Assembly: GCA_029891345.1 (NCBI GenBank)
Contig: CM057009.1
Location: forward strand, 213,596,120-213,660,119
Length of the DNA stretch: 64,000 nucleotides
Direction: 5' to 3'
DNA from: Dryococelus australis
Taxonomy: Eukaryota > Arthropoda > Insecta > Phasmatodea > Phasmatidae
The translations under genes and the position numbers were made by a program. Below are positions 30,045 to 50,297 of the stretch, piece by piece (the first letter of the stretch is position 1; every line of letters starts with the position of its first letter). Below the pieces are notes generated by a model. The model was not told where the DNA came from, ran no database searches, and saw only the letters and a list, made by a program, of their open reading frames with translations.

Positions 30045-32737
30045 GAAGTCTGCCAGCCGGCTGAGCTCTGAGGAGTGTTACTAGTAGCATATACATGTTG
30101 ACCTTTGAGCAATAGTGGCATAAGGGATGCATGTTGCCTCTTGAAAGTCTGAGTTTGGTCTGAACTGGGAAGCCTTGTGAGGGAATGGAGGGAGGGAAAG
30201 AGAGCAGAAGATGAGGTCTATCATCTTCTAAGTCTGAGGATTGTATGTGCCAGAATGGTTGGCGAAGGGAAAGAGTGGGCGTGGGCAGCGGCAGAGGTCC
30301 GTTCCGGTCAGAGATCAGTGGAGGCATGAGCTGTGAGGGTGGGTGATGGGAAGGAGTGGGAGACAGCAGCAGGGCACATCTATCTAAGATGCAGGATGTT
30401 GAAAGACTGAGCTGGAATGGGTGTCGCGGATAGGGAGGGGTAAAGAGCAGCAAGGCACAGCTGTGTAGGATGCAGGTTGTTGAGAGACTGAGCTGGGATT
30501 GTGGATTAGGTGAGGGAGGGGGAGAGAGAAACAGAGCAGGTCCGTCGTTTAAGTTTGAGGACTTAATGAGCTGGTAAGGTGAATGAGTGGAGGGAGGGGG
30601 ATGGGAGAGGGGCACACGTCCATCGACCCCGAAGTTTGAGAACTGAATGAGCTGGGATGGTTGATGAGGTGTAGGAGGGGTTTTTTGGGAGCAGGCACAT
30701 GTCCATCTTTGTTGATATTTGAATGAAAACTGAGCTCTGGAGCATCATAGATGTTAATTTTTCAATGTCTGGCGAGCAACTGAGGCCGGAATTGTGCAAT
30801 TTGAGAATTGTAATAAACCAATGTTTGAAAATAACAAGATACACAAATATAGCATTTGAAGTGAATAATTATAATTGAACAAATTACAACCACCGAAACA
30901 TTAAATAACTGTGAAATACACAACACTAAATAAGCCCCGAAAAAATAATTTACCAACGAAACATAATATAAAGCAACAAGACGACTTGCCATTTAAAGAA
31001 ATACAACTACGCAAAACAAGTACTAACCACACACAACAAAAATAAAAGATTTACCAATGAATTATTAAGTATACTGAAATATATAACTACACAAATCAAT
31101 TACAAGCACATGCAACGAGATGAACTACCATTTAAATATATCACAAGGAACAAATTACCAATTAAATATTATAATTCTCCAAGACCGACACTAATACTAA
31201 TTAAGCTGAACAAAAAACGATTTTTCCATGAAACATTAAATAAAATCGGACATTAATTACAAAAAAATGAAGCATGCACAACGAGAAACTAATTAAACAA
31301 TAAGAAACGATTATCCTAATTGCACATCTACACCATCTCGTACTGTAATATTACTAAATTACGTTTTAATTTATAAAAACTCTGTTTCAGTAAAGTTTCT
31401 TATAACATATCCCGTCCTGTATAGCTACTTTCCCATCATTTATGAAAAAATGTGTTAAAAATATACCCCAAGTAAAGTGTACATTTTCTCAAGGAAACAA
31501 AGATACCATTCATTGCAAACGAATATGTTACTACCCACACACAGCAATTTAAGGAACACCTCACGTCTTATCCCACAGGCCTAACGTGCTGTGCTGACCC
31601 GAATAACGCCAGCCCGGGCCGGTCCTGCGATGTGCACCTCACATCACCGTCATCAGCTCTCATAACCTCGCTCCCGTGCTGTCATGCCCCCACTCATTCC
31701 AACACAAAGAGCAAATAACAGCATTTATTATGCTTAATGAATACATGTTTTGTTTTATAAAAAGTTTTATAAATCAAGATACGAACAAAACAATCAATTC
31801 CCCCTTATGTGTGTTATAGCATTCAGTTGCGTGTAAGTTGTAAAAATCAATTAATAAAAATTAAATTTACGAATAAAGCCATTAATTCCCATTCCTATGT
31901 GTTACAGTGTGTAGTTGTGTAAGTTTTATATTACTGTTCCATGACATGATATTATGTTCAAATAGTGTTAAAACGTATGACACTTTTGTGTTAGCTGTGT
32001 AATGAGTTCATTATTAATAAGTTCTCATTATATTCTTTTATACACAGTGTTGTCTGCAGTTATGTTACGAGCGAGAGATCAGCAGGCTATATATTCAACT
32101 CTGCCTTTCGCCGTTATCCACTCCTACTCGCACAGAGACAGCGGGCACAAGGCTTCGCCAACAGTCATCTCCCTCACACCCTAGCACGTCCACTTTAGGG
32201 CGTTGGCTACACACGTTTATTCCGTTTAGAAAAACTTTAGGAATTCGAATATCCGTTTTAAGCAATATCACGTCATAATTACAGTGTAAATGCTAGTAAA
32301 AATATCACGTATTTAGAAAAGACAATAATTTCCAAAACTACTCAATGTTAACACCGCAAGTCAGACCAAAACATGTATATTTTTTTCCGGATATGAAAAA
32401 AACTCGCATTTGTTATATTTTGCTGTAAACACAACTTTACAAATTACAAATTTCACACTGTAATAAGTGGTGTTACAATTCACCTGAACATAACAATCAA
32501 TTGCATAACAATTAAATCGCCTCGGAAATATTAGTTCGAAAAACATAACATTTCCATACAAGTCTATTTAAACCCCCAACCCGTATAAAAGGATAAGCTA
32601 TTTAGCATTCTCACACAATGTGTTTTGGAGATTCCGATTTATGATACTAGTCAGTTGTGTTGCCCCATCTTGTGTAACCAATGGAAGAAACCTTATTCGT
32701 GAAGTGTTACTACAGTCAGTAGTGTACATCTTATTGG
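30045..32737 (+). repeat. left terminal inverted repeat of the 20-kb element
   Basis: About 2.7 kb, matched along its whole length by 47,786-50,297 inverted. Landmarks found in both arms: GAAGTCTGCCAGCCG at the tip, GATGCATGTTGCCTCTTG, CAATTTGAGAATTGTAATAAAC, TCATTTATGAAAAAATGTGT, TCTCATAACCTCGCTCCC, AAGTCAGACCAAAACATGTA and TTGGAGATTCCGATTTAT near the inner end. Identity varies around 80-90% in the stretches I compared. Minus-strand open frames inside (for example 192 residues at 30,615-30,037) are Pro/Ser-rich shadows of the subterminal tandem repeats. Confidence 0.85.
30120..30710. repeat. subterminal tandem repeats in the left TIR
   Basis: About six to seven imperfect copies of an ~85-base unit: (A/G)CTGAGCTGGGATGG...GGAGGGGGAGAGAGCAG...GGCACAxxTCxx. 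The right TIR holds the same unit in inverse orientation at about 49,985-50,200 but with fewer copies, about three or four. Confidence 0.7.
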
Positions 32738-33147
32738 ACTGTGCTTGCATGTACATGTAAAATGCGTATTTTACTCGTAGCATAGACCATCTATCTGTGT
32801 AACACGTAGATTTGCCAGGCATCCTGCAGCAGCAGCATGCAGATCTCGTTAGTAACCGTGTATATGCTTGAACATGTAACGGAAAACCGTATCATCTTTA
32901 ACAAGTTTATTGTACGTGTTTATTATGACATTCCCTTAGTAGAAATGTTTATGTAAAATTGGTTCTGTGAATGGACCAATAATATTAATAATTACGTGTC
33001 CCCCCTGTGGTACTCGCAAACTCTCGTATATGACCGACACAGATTAGTTAAACAGTTTTTAGTCAAATATTTTGTTACCATTTGTATCTCGATTGAATAA
33101 CCTTTGAAAAATATAACTGATAATCGTATAATTGTGTAAATTAAAAA
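32738..33147. other. gene-free stretch inside the 20-kb element
   Basis: Begins where the TIR match ends. No supportable gene. Confidence 0.4.
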
Positions 33148-47785: not shown

Positions 47786-50297
47786 GGTCCAATAATATGT
47801 ACACTATTGACTTAAGTAACACTTCACGAATAAGATTTCTTACATTGTTTATACAAGATGGGGCAACACGACAGACTATTATTATAAATCGGAATCTCCA
47901 ACACATTGTGTGAAAATGCGAAATAGCTGATCCCTTTGCATTGGTTGGGGGTTGAATAGACATATGTGGAAACATTACATTTTTTGAACTAATATTTCCT
48001 AGACGTTTGATCGTTATTCAATTGATTGTTATGTGCAGGTGGATTGTATCACCACTTATTGCAGCCTGAATTTTTAATTGGTAAAGTTGGATTGATAGCA
48101 AATACTAAATAATGTGAGTTTTTTCAAATCCGGAAAATAAAATACATGTTTTGGTCTGACTTGTGGTGTAAACATTGAGTGGTTTGGAAATCATTGTAAG
48201 TCTTTTTTTAACTATATATTTTTTTCCAGCATTTGTACTGTATTAAGGGCGTGAAATTGCTTTAACGGATATTTGAATTCTAAACGCTTTCTTAATGGAA
48301 AAGCATGTGTTGCCAACACCCTAAAGCAGACGTGCTAGGGTGTGAGGGAGATGACTGTTGGCGAAGCTTTGCGCCCTCTGGCAGGAGGACTGTGAACTAA
48401 GCAGATAACCCTCTGTCTCCATGCAAGTAAGATTTGATAATGGCGAAAGACAGAGTTGAATATCTAGTGCTCTGAGCTCCCGTTCGTAATATAACTGTAG
48501 GCAACACTATGTATAAAGGAACATTAATGGGAACTTAATAACAATGAACACATTATTACACAGCAAACACAAATGTGTCATATGTTTTTACACTATTTGA
48601 AAATATGGTAAAAAACCATAAGCAATTACACGCTGTAATGCATAGAATAGGGAATTAACTATTTTATTTGTGAATTTAATTTTTATTAATTAATTTTTAC
48701 AACTTACACGCATAGGAGCGGAAATGAATGGTTTTGTATGTATATTGCTTTATAAAATAAAATGTGTCTTCATTAAGCATCACGTATGCAGTTATTTACA
48801 CTTTGTTTTGGAATGAGTGGCGGCATGACATAGCATGGGAGCGAGGTTATGAGAGCTGATTGTGGTGAAGCGAGGTGCGCGTCGCAGTACTGGCCCAGGC
48901 TGGCATTATGCGGGTCGGCGCAGCACGCTATGCCTGCGGGATGCAGATGTGAGGTGCTGTCTTACACTTATATATATATATATATATATATATATATATA
49001 TATATATATATATATATATATATATATATATATATATATATATATATATATATATATATGTGTGTGTGTGTGTATATATATATATATATATATATATATA
49101 TATATATATATATATAGGTAGTAAAATATACGTTTGCACTTAACAGTTTTTGCTTGCATGAGGAAATGTACACTTTACTGAAGGCATATTTAAACACATT
49201 TTTTCATAAATGATGGGGAAGCAGCTATACAGGGCAGGACATGTTACTAGATACTTCATTGAAACAGAGTTTTTATATACTAATACATCATTTTGTAATA
49301 TTACACTTGATGGCATAACGATGATGGTTTGGCTGGTCATTATAATAAAATGTATACACAGTCTGGCTTCAGTTATGAGTGATATGGTGTAGATGTGCAC
49401 TTAGGGTAGTCGTTAATATTATTGTTTAGTTAGTTTCTCTTTGTGTGTGCTTAATTTTGGTGTAATTAATGCCCATTATATTCAATGTTTCATTGATAAA
49501 TAATTTTTGTTGCGCTTAATTAGTATTTGTGTTGGTACTTTGTATTCGTTGTGGTTTATTTAAATGGCAGTTCATCTCGTTGCAAGTGCTTGTCATTGAT
49601 TTGTATTGTTATATATTTCAGTATATTCAATGTTTCATTGGTAAATCGTTTTTCATTGTGTGTGGTTAATACTTTAATAGTGTAGTCGTATTTCTTTAAT
49701 TGGTAAGTCGTCTTGTTGTCTTGTATTATGTTTAATTGGTAAATTGTTTTCTCGGGACATATATAGTATTGTGTATCTCATGGTTATTTGATGTTTTGGT
49801 GAATGTAATTCGTTCAATTAGCATATATTCTCTTCAAATGCTATATTTGTGTTTATTACAATTCTCAAATTGCACAATTACAACCTCAGTAGGTTGCCAG
49901 ACATGAATAATTAAACACCTATCATGCTCCAGAGCTTATGCTTCATTCATACAGCAACGAAGGTGAACATGTGCCTGCTCCCGACACCCCCTCCAACGCC
50001 TCACCTACCATCCCAGCTCATTAAGTCCTCAAAATTTGAAATCGATGGACGTATGCCCACTCACTCTCCACCTCCCTCCCCTCATACACATTTCCAGCTC
50101 ATTTAGTCCTCAGAGGTCAATGACGATGGAACTGCTCTGCTGCTCTCTCCCCCTCCCCCCCTCATCGGTTTTCCCAGCTCAGTCCTAAGTCATACTTCCA
50201 AGAGGCAACATGCATCTCTTATGCCACTCTTGCTCCAAGGTAAACATATATATGCTACTAGTCCTACCCCTCAGAGCTCAGTCGGCTGGCAGACTTC
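47786..50297 (-). repeat. right terminal inverted repeat of the 20-kb element
   Basis: Inverted match of 30,045-32,737, about 2.5 kb. It differs by the (TA)n expansion at 48,968-49,116, which the left arm has only as ACCCACACACAG, and by fewer subterminal tandem repeats. Confidence 0.85.
48968..49116. repeat. microsatellite (TA)n-(TG)n-(TA)n
   Basis: (TA)n at 48,968-49,058, (TG)7 to 49,073 and (TA)n to 49,116. Overlapping Ile-Tyr frames on both strands are artefacts. Confidence 0.95.

Follow-up and report, generated by a model that had tools for sequence, protein, structure and literature searches.

The window analysed here is a 64,000-nucleotide stretch of the genome of the phasmid Dryococelus australis (C17:213596120-213660119) that harbours a ~20.3-kb element at 30041-50301, or ~19 kb once a nested repeat is subtracted. 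Two long terminal inverted repeats (TIRs, also called arms below) enclose a putative family B DNA polymerase gene (PolB) and a second, repetitive gene termed X (Table 1), and every gene belonging to the element is broken. An initial annotation made from the sequence alone had found only PolB recognisable amid a set of unrecognised genes; PolB-like frames with weak Pfam matches are indeed present, but the unrecognised set comes down mainly to gene X and the nested repeat. The genome searched for relatives comprises 3.415 Gb in 646 contigs, of which C1-C17 hold nearly all, and two further copies, A (C17:238925291-238943706) and E (C2:158113200-158126500), are central to the comparison.

Table 1. 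Features of the element, in window coordinates
Feature	Position	Strand	Remarks
Left TIR arm	30041..32739	+	PolB 3' side; self-BLAST, global alignment, seven-arm comparison
Subterminal 81-bp repeats	30353..30528	+	Extra copies in left arm; long array in another family end, L004
Non-coding stretch interior to left arm	32740..34188		In part common to copies A and E
Nested insertion, limits approximate, outside element proper	34189..35385	+	No counterpart in A or E; ~1.1 kb
Broken putative PolB gene (family B DNA polymerase, Polinton type)	35891..39272	-	Acidic N-terminal part may extend to 39811
AT-rich spacer, PolB to X	39812..43434		Mostly common to copy E
Broken gene X	43435..47148	-	Cys-rich start, then diverged internal repeat units
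Right TIR arm	47787..50301	-	Gene X side; self-BLAST, global alignment, seven-arm comparison

The inverted arms that the initial annotation placed at ~30,045-32,737 and ~47,786-50,297 are recovered by self-BLAST at 30041-32739 and 47787-50301. The annotation had allowed for arms that match in patches only; they form instead four colinear inverted blocks of 76-82% identity, each with an E of 4e-44 or lower (30041-30240/50301-50107, 30486-31339/50184-49381, 31344-31535/49305-49117 and 31557-32739/48956-47787). Globally aligned, the arms are 79.4% identical over 2271 columns with a Kimura two-parameter (K2P) distance of 0.242, and the likeness stops at their inner ends, falling to 37% inside 32745; the first ~200 bp, left unaligned by the global aligner, are aligned by BLAST. 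If the arms were identical when inserted, the insertion is old (K2P 0.24, with no clock applied). The arm starts read ...GAAGTCTG; the end motif used for comparison, (AGT)2 or (AG)3 in an excerpt of PMC8097293, is that of vertebrate Mavericks and may not suit invertebrates. Though both window arms begin at the same base, 30045 and 50297 may not be the ancestral terminus of the family, because copies A, L002, L003, L005 and L008 remain similar to one another, as AT-rich repeats, for ~60-350 bp beyond the window tip. The array of subterminal repeats at L004 (C16:12.40 Mb) shows at least 17 overlapping register shifts among the matches listed.

Parts of seven arms were aligned together and sites were counted at which two of three sequences agree. 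The window pair shows 82% identity over 1302 columns, and its likeness to the other arms is 64-66% for the right arm of E, 70-72% and 66% for the right and left arms of A, 58% for L003 and 78-79% for L002. With the right arm of E as the third sequence, 262 sites join the window pair, and 92 and 68 join one window arm with E; the corresponding counts are 216 against 98 and 66 with the right arm of A, and 134 against 85 and 89 with L002. The window arms are thus each other's nearest relatives among the seven arms compared, and are the paired ends of one old element. Their closeness by site counts suggests that they were homogenised inside a single element. The two arms of copy A are unmatched by the same measure: 65 sites join them, against 81 and 77 when the window left arm is the third sequence, and again 65 against 79 and 76 when it is the right. 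A may accordingly be the product of natural recombination, or a composite that formed after insertion.

The PolB-like reading is spread over several minus-strand frames with stops (39272-35891), in which exonuclease and polymerase motifs were recognised by eye. The piece at 37679-38065 matches the Pfam family Endonuclease_7 just under the cut-off (E 1e-4), and a C10 relative (L064:5256-6050) matches the same family at 7.5e-7 and DNA_pol_B_2 at 0.003, the latter under the cut-off. In the protein collection two short ENA proteins match at 2e-8 and 2e-6; the best E of a PDB search with the PolB piece is 0.83, and a viral-contig search with that piece, alone and in an alignment, gave no confirmed relative. 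The assignment as PolB is putative, being based on weak Pfam matches and on motifs recognised by eye. The gene is colinear in copy A, the C10 copy and E, and its DNA is 71-76% identical in pairwise comparisons of the window, A, E and the C1 copy L055, in a roughly star-like pattern; L055 also has inner-arm matches ~4 kb downstream of its PolB piece. Mismatch at codon positions 1/2/3 is nearly flat between the window and A (0.223/0.196/0.245) and between the window and E (0.217/0.205/0.263), which suggests that the PolBs concerned had diverged little from one another by the time the copies became inactive. The values are 0.242/0.203/0.363 for the window and the C10 copy, and 0.220/0.201/0.322 for L054.

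The minus-strand pieces at 47148-43435 are treated as one gene, X, guided by its colinear copies in E, the C10 copy (L063), L067 and B. Self-comparison pairs 45797-46012 with 45231-45509 (32% over 62 aa, E 1e-11) and 44996-45460 with 44484-44846 (25% over 100 aa, E 1e-4) as internal repeats, and on our reading of the pieces there are ~5 units. Third codon positions carry an excess of mismatches between the window and several other copies (positions 1/2/3: C10, 0.302/0.234/0.433; L067, 0.269/0.243/0.448; B, 0.219/0.202/0.361; L024, 0.258/0.230/0.386; L025, 0.242/0.205/0.323), even though the signal is weakened by parts of some X pieces that are translated in the wrong frame. The values are 0.239/0.184/0.245 for E, 0.175/0.148/0.163 for L010 (~128 columns per position) and 0.333/0.259/0.442 for A (~54 columns per position). 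This pattern suggests that X was once a selected protein gene and that its window and E copies diverged mostly through neutral decay. With pieces and short unit alignments as queries, X has no relatives in Pfam, PDB, viral contigs or the protein collection; of two PDB searches with X profiles, one returned nothing and the other an E of 1.1. The last X unit does match open reading frames (ORFs) located 3' of the double jelly-roll (DJR) capsid gene in virus-type loci: the unit of the C10 copy (8348-8716) matches L032:2379-2954 (26.6% over 124 aa, E 8e-10), and the window unit (43665-43558) matches L049:8499-8858 (41.7% over 36 aa, E 4e-6). Going by these similarities, X resembles an enlarged form of the small gene directly downstream of the capsid gene. 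Elsewhere in the window, the start of a minus-strand ORF at 21508-22053 is X-unit-like by eye and is unlisted in the self-comparison at E 1e-3.

Relatives of these parts are numerous in the genome, where only the best 40-150 candidates were scored per query and the candidate numbers are a loose first look, not element counts. The gene pieces gave 150 matches for the PolB piece 37679-38065 (best 150 of 8573 candidates), 150 for the X piece 44996-45460 (best 150 of 6430) and 152 for the DJR piece 1932-2450 (best 150 of 9636). The tip query gave 54 matches (best 40 of 138), the inner arm 31557-32739 gave 85 in 40 clusters (best 40 of 149) and the X DNA query 76 in 39 clusters (best 40 of 3565). 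Copy E is colinear with window 32749-47621 at ~70-79% DNA identity, its two long blocks being at 70% and 74% (shared window blocks 35386-41363, 41361-41568, 41713-41967 and 42493-47208). It contains PolB and X, lacks the nested repeat and has inner-arm sequence on both sides; the comparison shows the best match per 200-bp bin, so that a weak DJR match under a stronger X match could be hidden. Four more clusters (C2:66.24, C3:201.44, C9:125.94 and C14:91.10 Mb) place the inner arm next to the 5' side of X, at a distance of 1.1-2.2 kb and in matching orientation, where 0.02 pairs are expected. The further copies that the initial annotation had proposed to look for with the arm as query are thus in part forthcoming, in E with the same gene content and in the four clusters with X, but only 2 of the 40 inner-arm clusters scored have an inverted partner within 30 kb.

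Linkage among X, PolB and DJR was assessed with the best 149 matches of each, the window's own being left out, so that zeros are weak. X and PolB lie within 15 kb of each other at five places, always in the same order and on the same strand (0.2 expected), and in one further case the two, on opposite strands, are separated by 22 kb. Pairs of DJR and PolB number zero within 15 kb and one at 29 kb, and no pairs of X and DJR occur within 40 kb. The 39 tip matches used of the 54 (the window's two and secondary fragments excluded) have no X within 40 kb, one PolB at 22 kb and one DJR at 15.5 kb. Two stretches upstream of PolB relatives were also compared, of which L067 has X and L066 nothing related.

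Copy A resembles the window element at the tip, in PolB (74.6% over 3.6 kb) and at the PolB-side end, the only end at which it has inner-arm sequence; its rightmost ~150 bp are without a match. In place of X it carries a phospholipase A2 (PLA2)-like piece (2.6e-8) and DJR capsid pieces (3e-19 and 1e-25). Pfam covered 7 of 10 ORFs of at least 110 aa in L049 and none of 7 in L050, and more genes in A are possible. The window itself holds a fragment of a virus-type element outside the arms (1208-3683, plus strand), in which a DJR piece (PF21738, E 4e-37, 1932-2450) precedes sequence that is conserved at other DJR loci. This DJR piece has no PDB match and no confirmed viral-contig relative, and no PolB relative was found in the 64-kb window beyond the element. 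An ORF beside the DJR gene at L036:2798-3385 (minus strand), without a Pfam or PDB match, is presumably minor-capsid-protein-like.

No capsid, integrase, ATPase or protease was detected in the pieces scanned of the window element or of E. The Pfam scan covered 39 of the 107 window pieces of at least 48 aa between the arms and all 13 ORFs of at least 100 aa in E, and gave no match to a DJR major capsid protein, packaging ATPase or cysteine protease, nor to a retroviral-type (RVE) integrase, in sequence that is decayed. A tblastn search with the ORFs of 20 DJR loci and of L049, in the left part of A, likewise found no DJR capsid in the window element. The open 193-aa ORF at 34762-35343 (plus strand) was considered as the element's one intact gene and rejected because it is a nested dispersed repeat, with relatives at 72-92% aa identity among the best 150 of 9974 candidates scored. 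It has no Pfam, significant PDB, protein-collection or viral-contig relative, and its single-sequence structure model is poor (mean predicted local distance difference test score, 46).

The most probable reading is that the window element belongs to a Polinton-related lineage with exchangeable modules, of which this form is capsid-less, long-armed, X-bearing and probably helper-dependent. The element would be a dead Polinton/Maverick-related copy whose live PolB, to judge from the enzyme family, copied a linear genome from its terminal repeats. Copying through the ends may have kept the 2.5-2.7-kb arms alike, and drift after insertion would have brought them to ~79% identity. The family appears to swap modules between one end and PolB, with capsid and PLA2-like genes in A and X in the window and E. 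The X form was most likely self-replicating and may have relied on virus-type relatives with similar tips for its integrase and perhaps its particles, which would make it a satellite-like or transposon-like Polinton; X could have served as an accessory, attachment or structural protein. Capsid and phospholipase-like genes occupy the position of X in a copy whose PolB is similar, so that the capsid-less form would be a variant within a family of Polinton type and not a virus of an entirely undescribed kind. Among the three options of the initial annotation, a Polinton relative that lost or never carried its virion genes is best supported.

Several observations weigh against this reading. The left arm of E is known from inner-arm matches only. 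Copy B has X without a PolB match in the 20 kb fetched, and L066, upstream of a PolB relative, has nothing related. The decay is total, so that absent genes might be unrecognised in a Pfam scan of this coverage, and, with the arms of A unmatched, its capsid module need not have travelled with this PolB. A search for perfect direct repeats of 5-11 bp next to the tips likewise yielded no target-site duplication in this old copy, whose true terminus is uncertain.

A possible though tentative alternative is that the PolB-side end was copied over the other end, which would make the long TIR and remove the capsid module. Overwriting of one end by a copy of the opposite end occurs in other linear genomes with inverted ends, and the inner arm is present on the PolB side only in A and at both ends in the window and E, where the capsid module is missing. 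Intact vertebrate Mavericks have TIRs of 46-1447 bp, with a mean of 402, in the excerpt of PMC8097293. The mismatch between the two ends of A keeps end overwriting at the rank of a rival, since the long TIR could be the ancestral state and A could have acquired one end from elsewhere. Nor does end copying explain X, which occupies the place of the module. Doubtful, too, is a history in which the lineage swapped the DJR module for X, a multi-repeat protein made from a serially duplicated capsid-neighbour gene, and became widespread as a satellite of similarly tipped virus-type Polintons or with X as an attachment or shell protein of its own. It is unlikely that the element was an ordinary Polinton of the virus type and that the window copy alone lost its virion genes, by deletion or by decay past the point of recognition. 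The capsid and phospholipase-like genes of A beside a similar PolB, and the age of the window copy (K2P 0.242), would fit such a loss, but E has the same gene content and AT-rich spacer, and the inner arm adjoins X in the four further clusters, which leaves no space for a capsid module there; a deletion confined to the window copy was set aside once E was seen. That X is part of a separate mobile element inserted beside PolB is improbable. Thousands of first-look X candidates genome-wide, and the X of copy B without PolB, speak for it, and against it stand the constant order and strand of X and PolB at the five other places, their maintenance in L063-L065 (one of those five) and L067, and the resemblance of the last X unit to a gene of DJR loci. 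The chance insertion of two independent repeats in opposite orientation around a PolB fragment is very improbable and already largely refuted: one-sided arm and tip matches are common and an inverted partner within 30 kb is rare, but the window arms are mutually closest and begin at the same base, the layout of PolB, X and inner arms recurs in E, and the unpaired clusters partly reflect the scoring of the best 40 of 149 candidates.

If the lineage with exchangeable modules is the true explanation, virus-type and capsid-less forms with similar polymerases share one genome, and a virus-to-transposon switch would be traceable copy by copy. X would be a large orphan gene family, once selected, whose role is open to testing, and the long matched arms are relevant to the question of how inverted ends grow in linear elements.

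The remainder of the window contains a direct repeat of ~395 bp (11007-11405/12594-12984, 90% alike) and an inverted repeat of 185 bp (25807-25991/26338-26522, 81% alike), both from self-BLAST. A Pif1-type helicase piece at 52060-52725 (plus strand; Pfam 1.3e-17) is presumably from a Helitron, and two retrotransposon pieces lie at 15723-16085 (minus strand; RNase H match, 6e-7) and 56568-57406 (plus strand; reverse-transcriptase-like by eye only). Near an X copy at C2:162.2 Mb are an ISXO2-like transposase piece just under the cut-off (L051:3098-3619, minus strand) and a lipase/LCAT-like ORF (L051:4888-5415, plus strand).

Adintoviruses are animal viruses that combine PolB with a DJR capsid and in some cases a phospholipase A2-like gene. 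Set beside them by description, copy A is alike in its phospholipase A2-like gene, whereas the window element is without the virion module. Polintons and Mavericks (Polintoviricetes) are similar in their size of 15-25 kb, their TIRs and, putatively, the Polinton-type PolB, and a DJR capsid gene is present in copy A, which belongs to the same lineage. The window element and E differ from them in that no integrase, ATPase, protease or capsid was detected and in the orphan gene X; a 6-bp target duplication is not seen at the window element. As the initial annotation had observed, its TIRs exceed the usual range, at 2.5-2.7 kb compared with the 46-1447 bp of intact vertebrate Mavericks in the PMC8097293 excerpt. 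Within a set of 72 Polintons, 9 capsid-less ones are also without ATPase and protease (PMC4028283, in excerpt). In the pieces scanned of the window element, too, none of these genes was detected, but no X-like repeat gene or long TIRs are described for them in that excerpt. Bidnaviruses and linear plasmids with a protein-primed PolB (PMC11071308, in excerpt) differ in that the window element is integrated in a nuclear genome and no parvovirus-type genes were found in it; they are alike, by description, in having PolB on a replicon without a DJR capsid, as a self-copying linear element.

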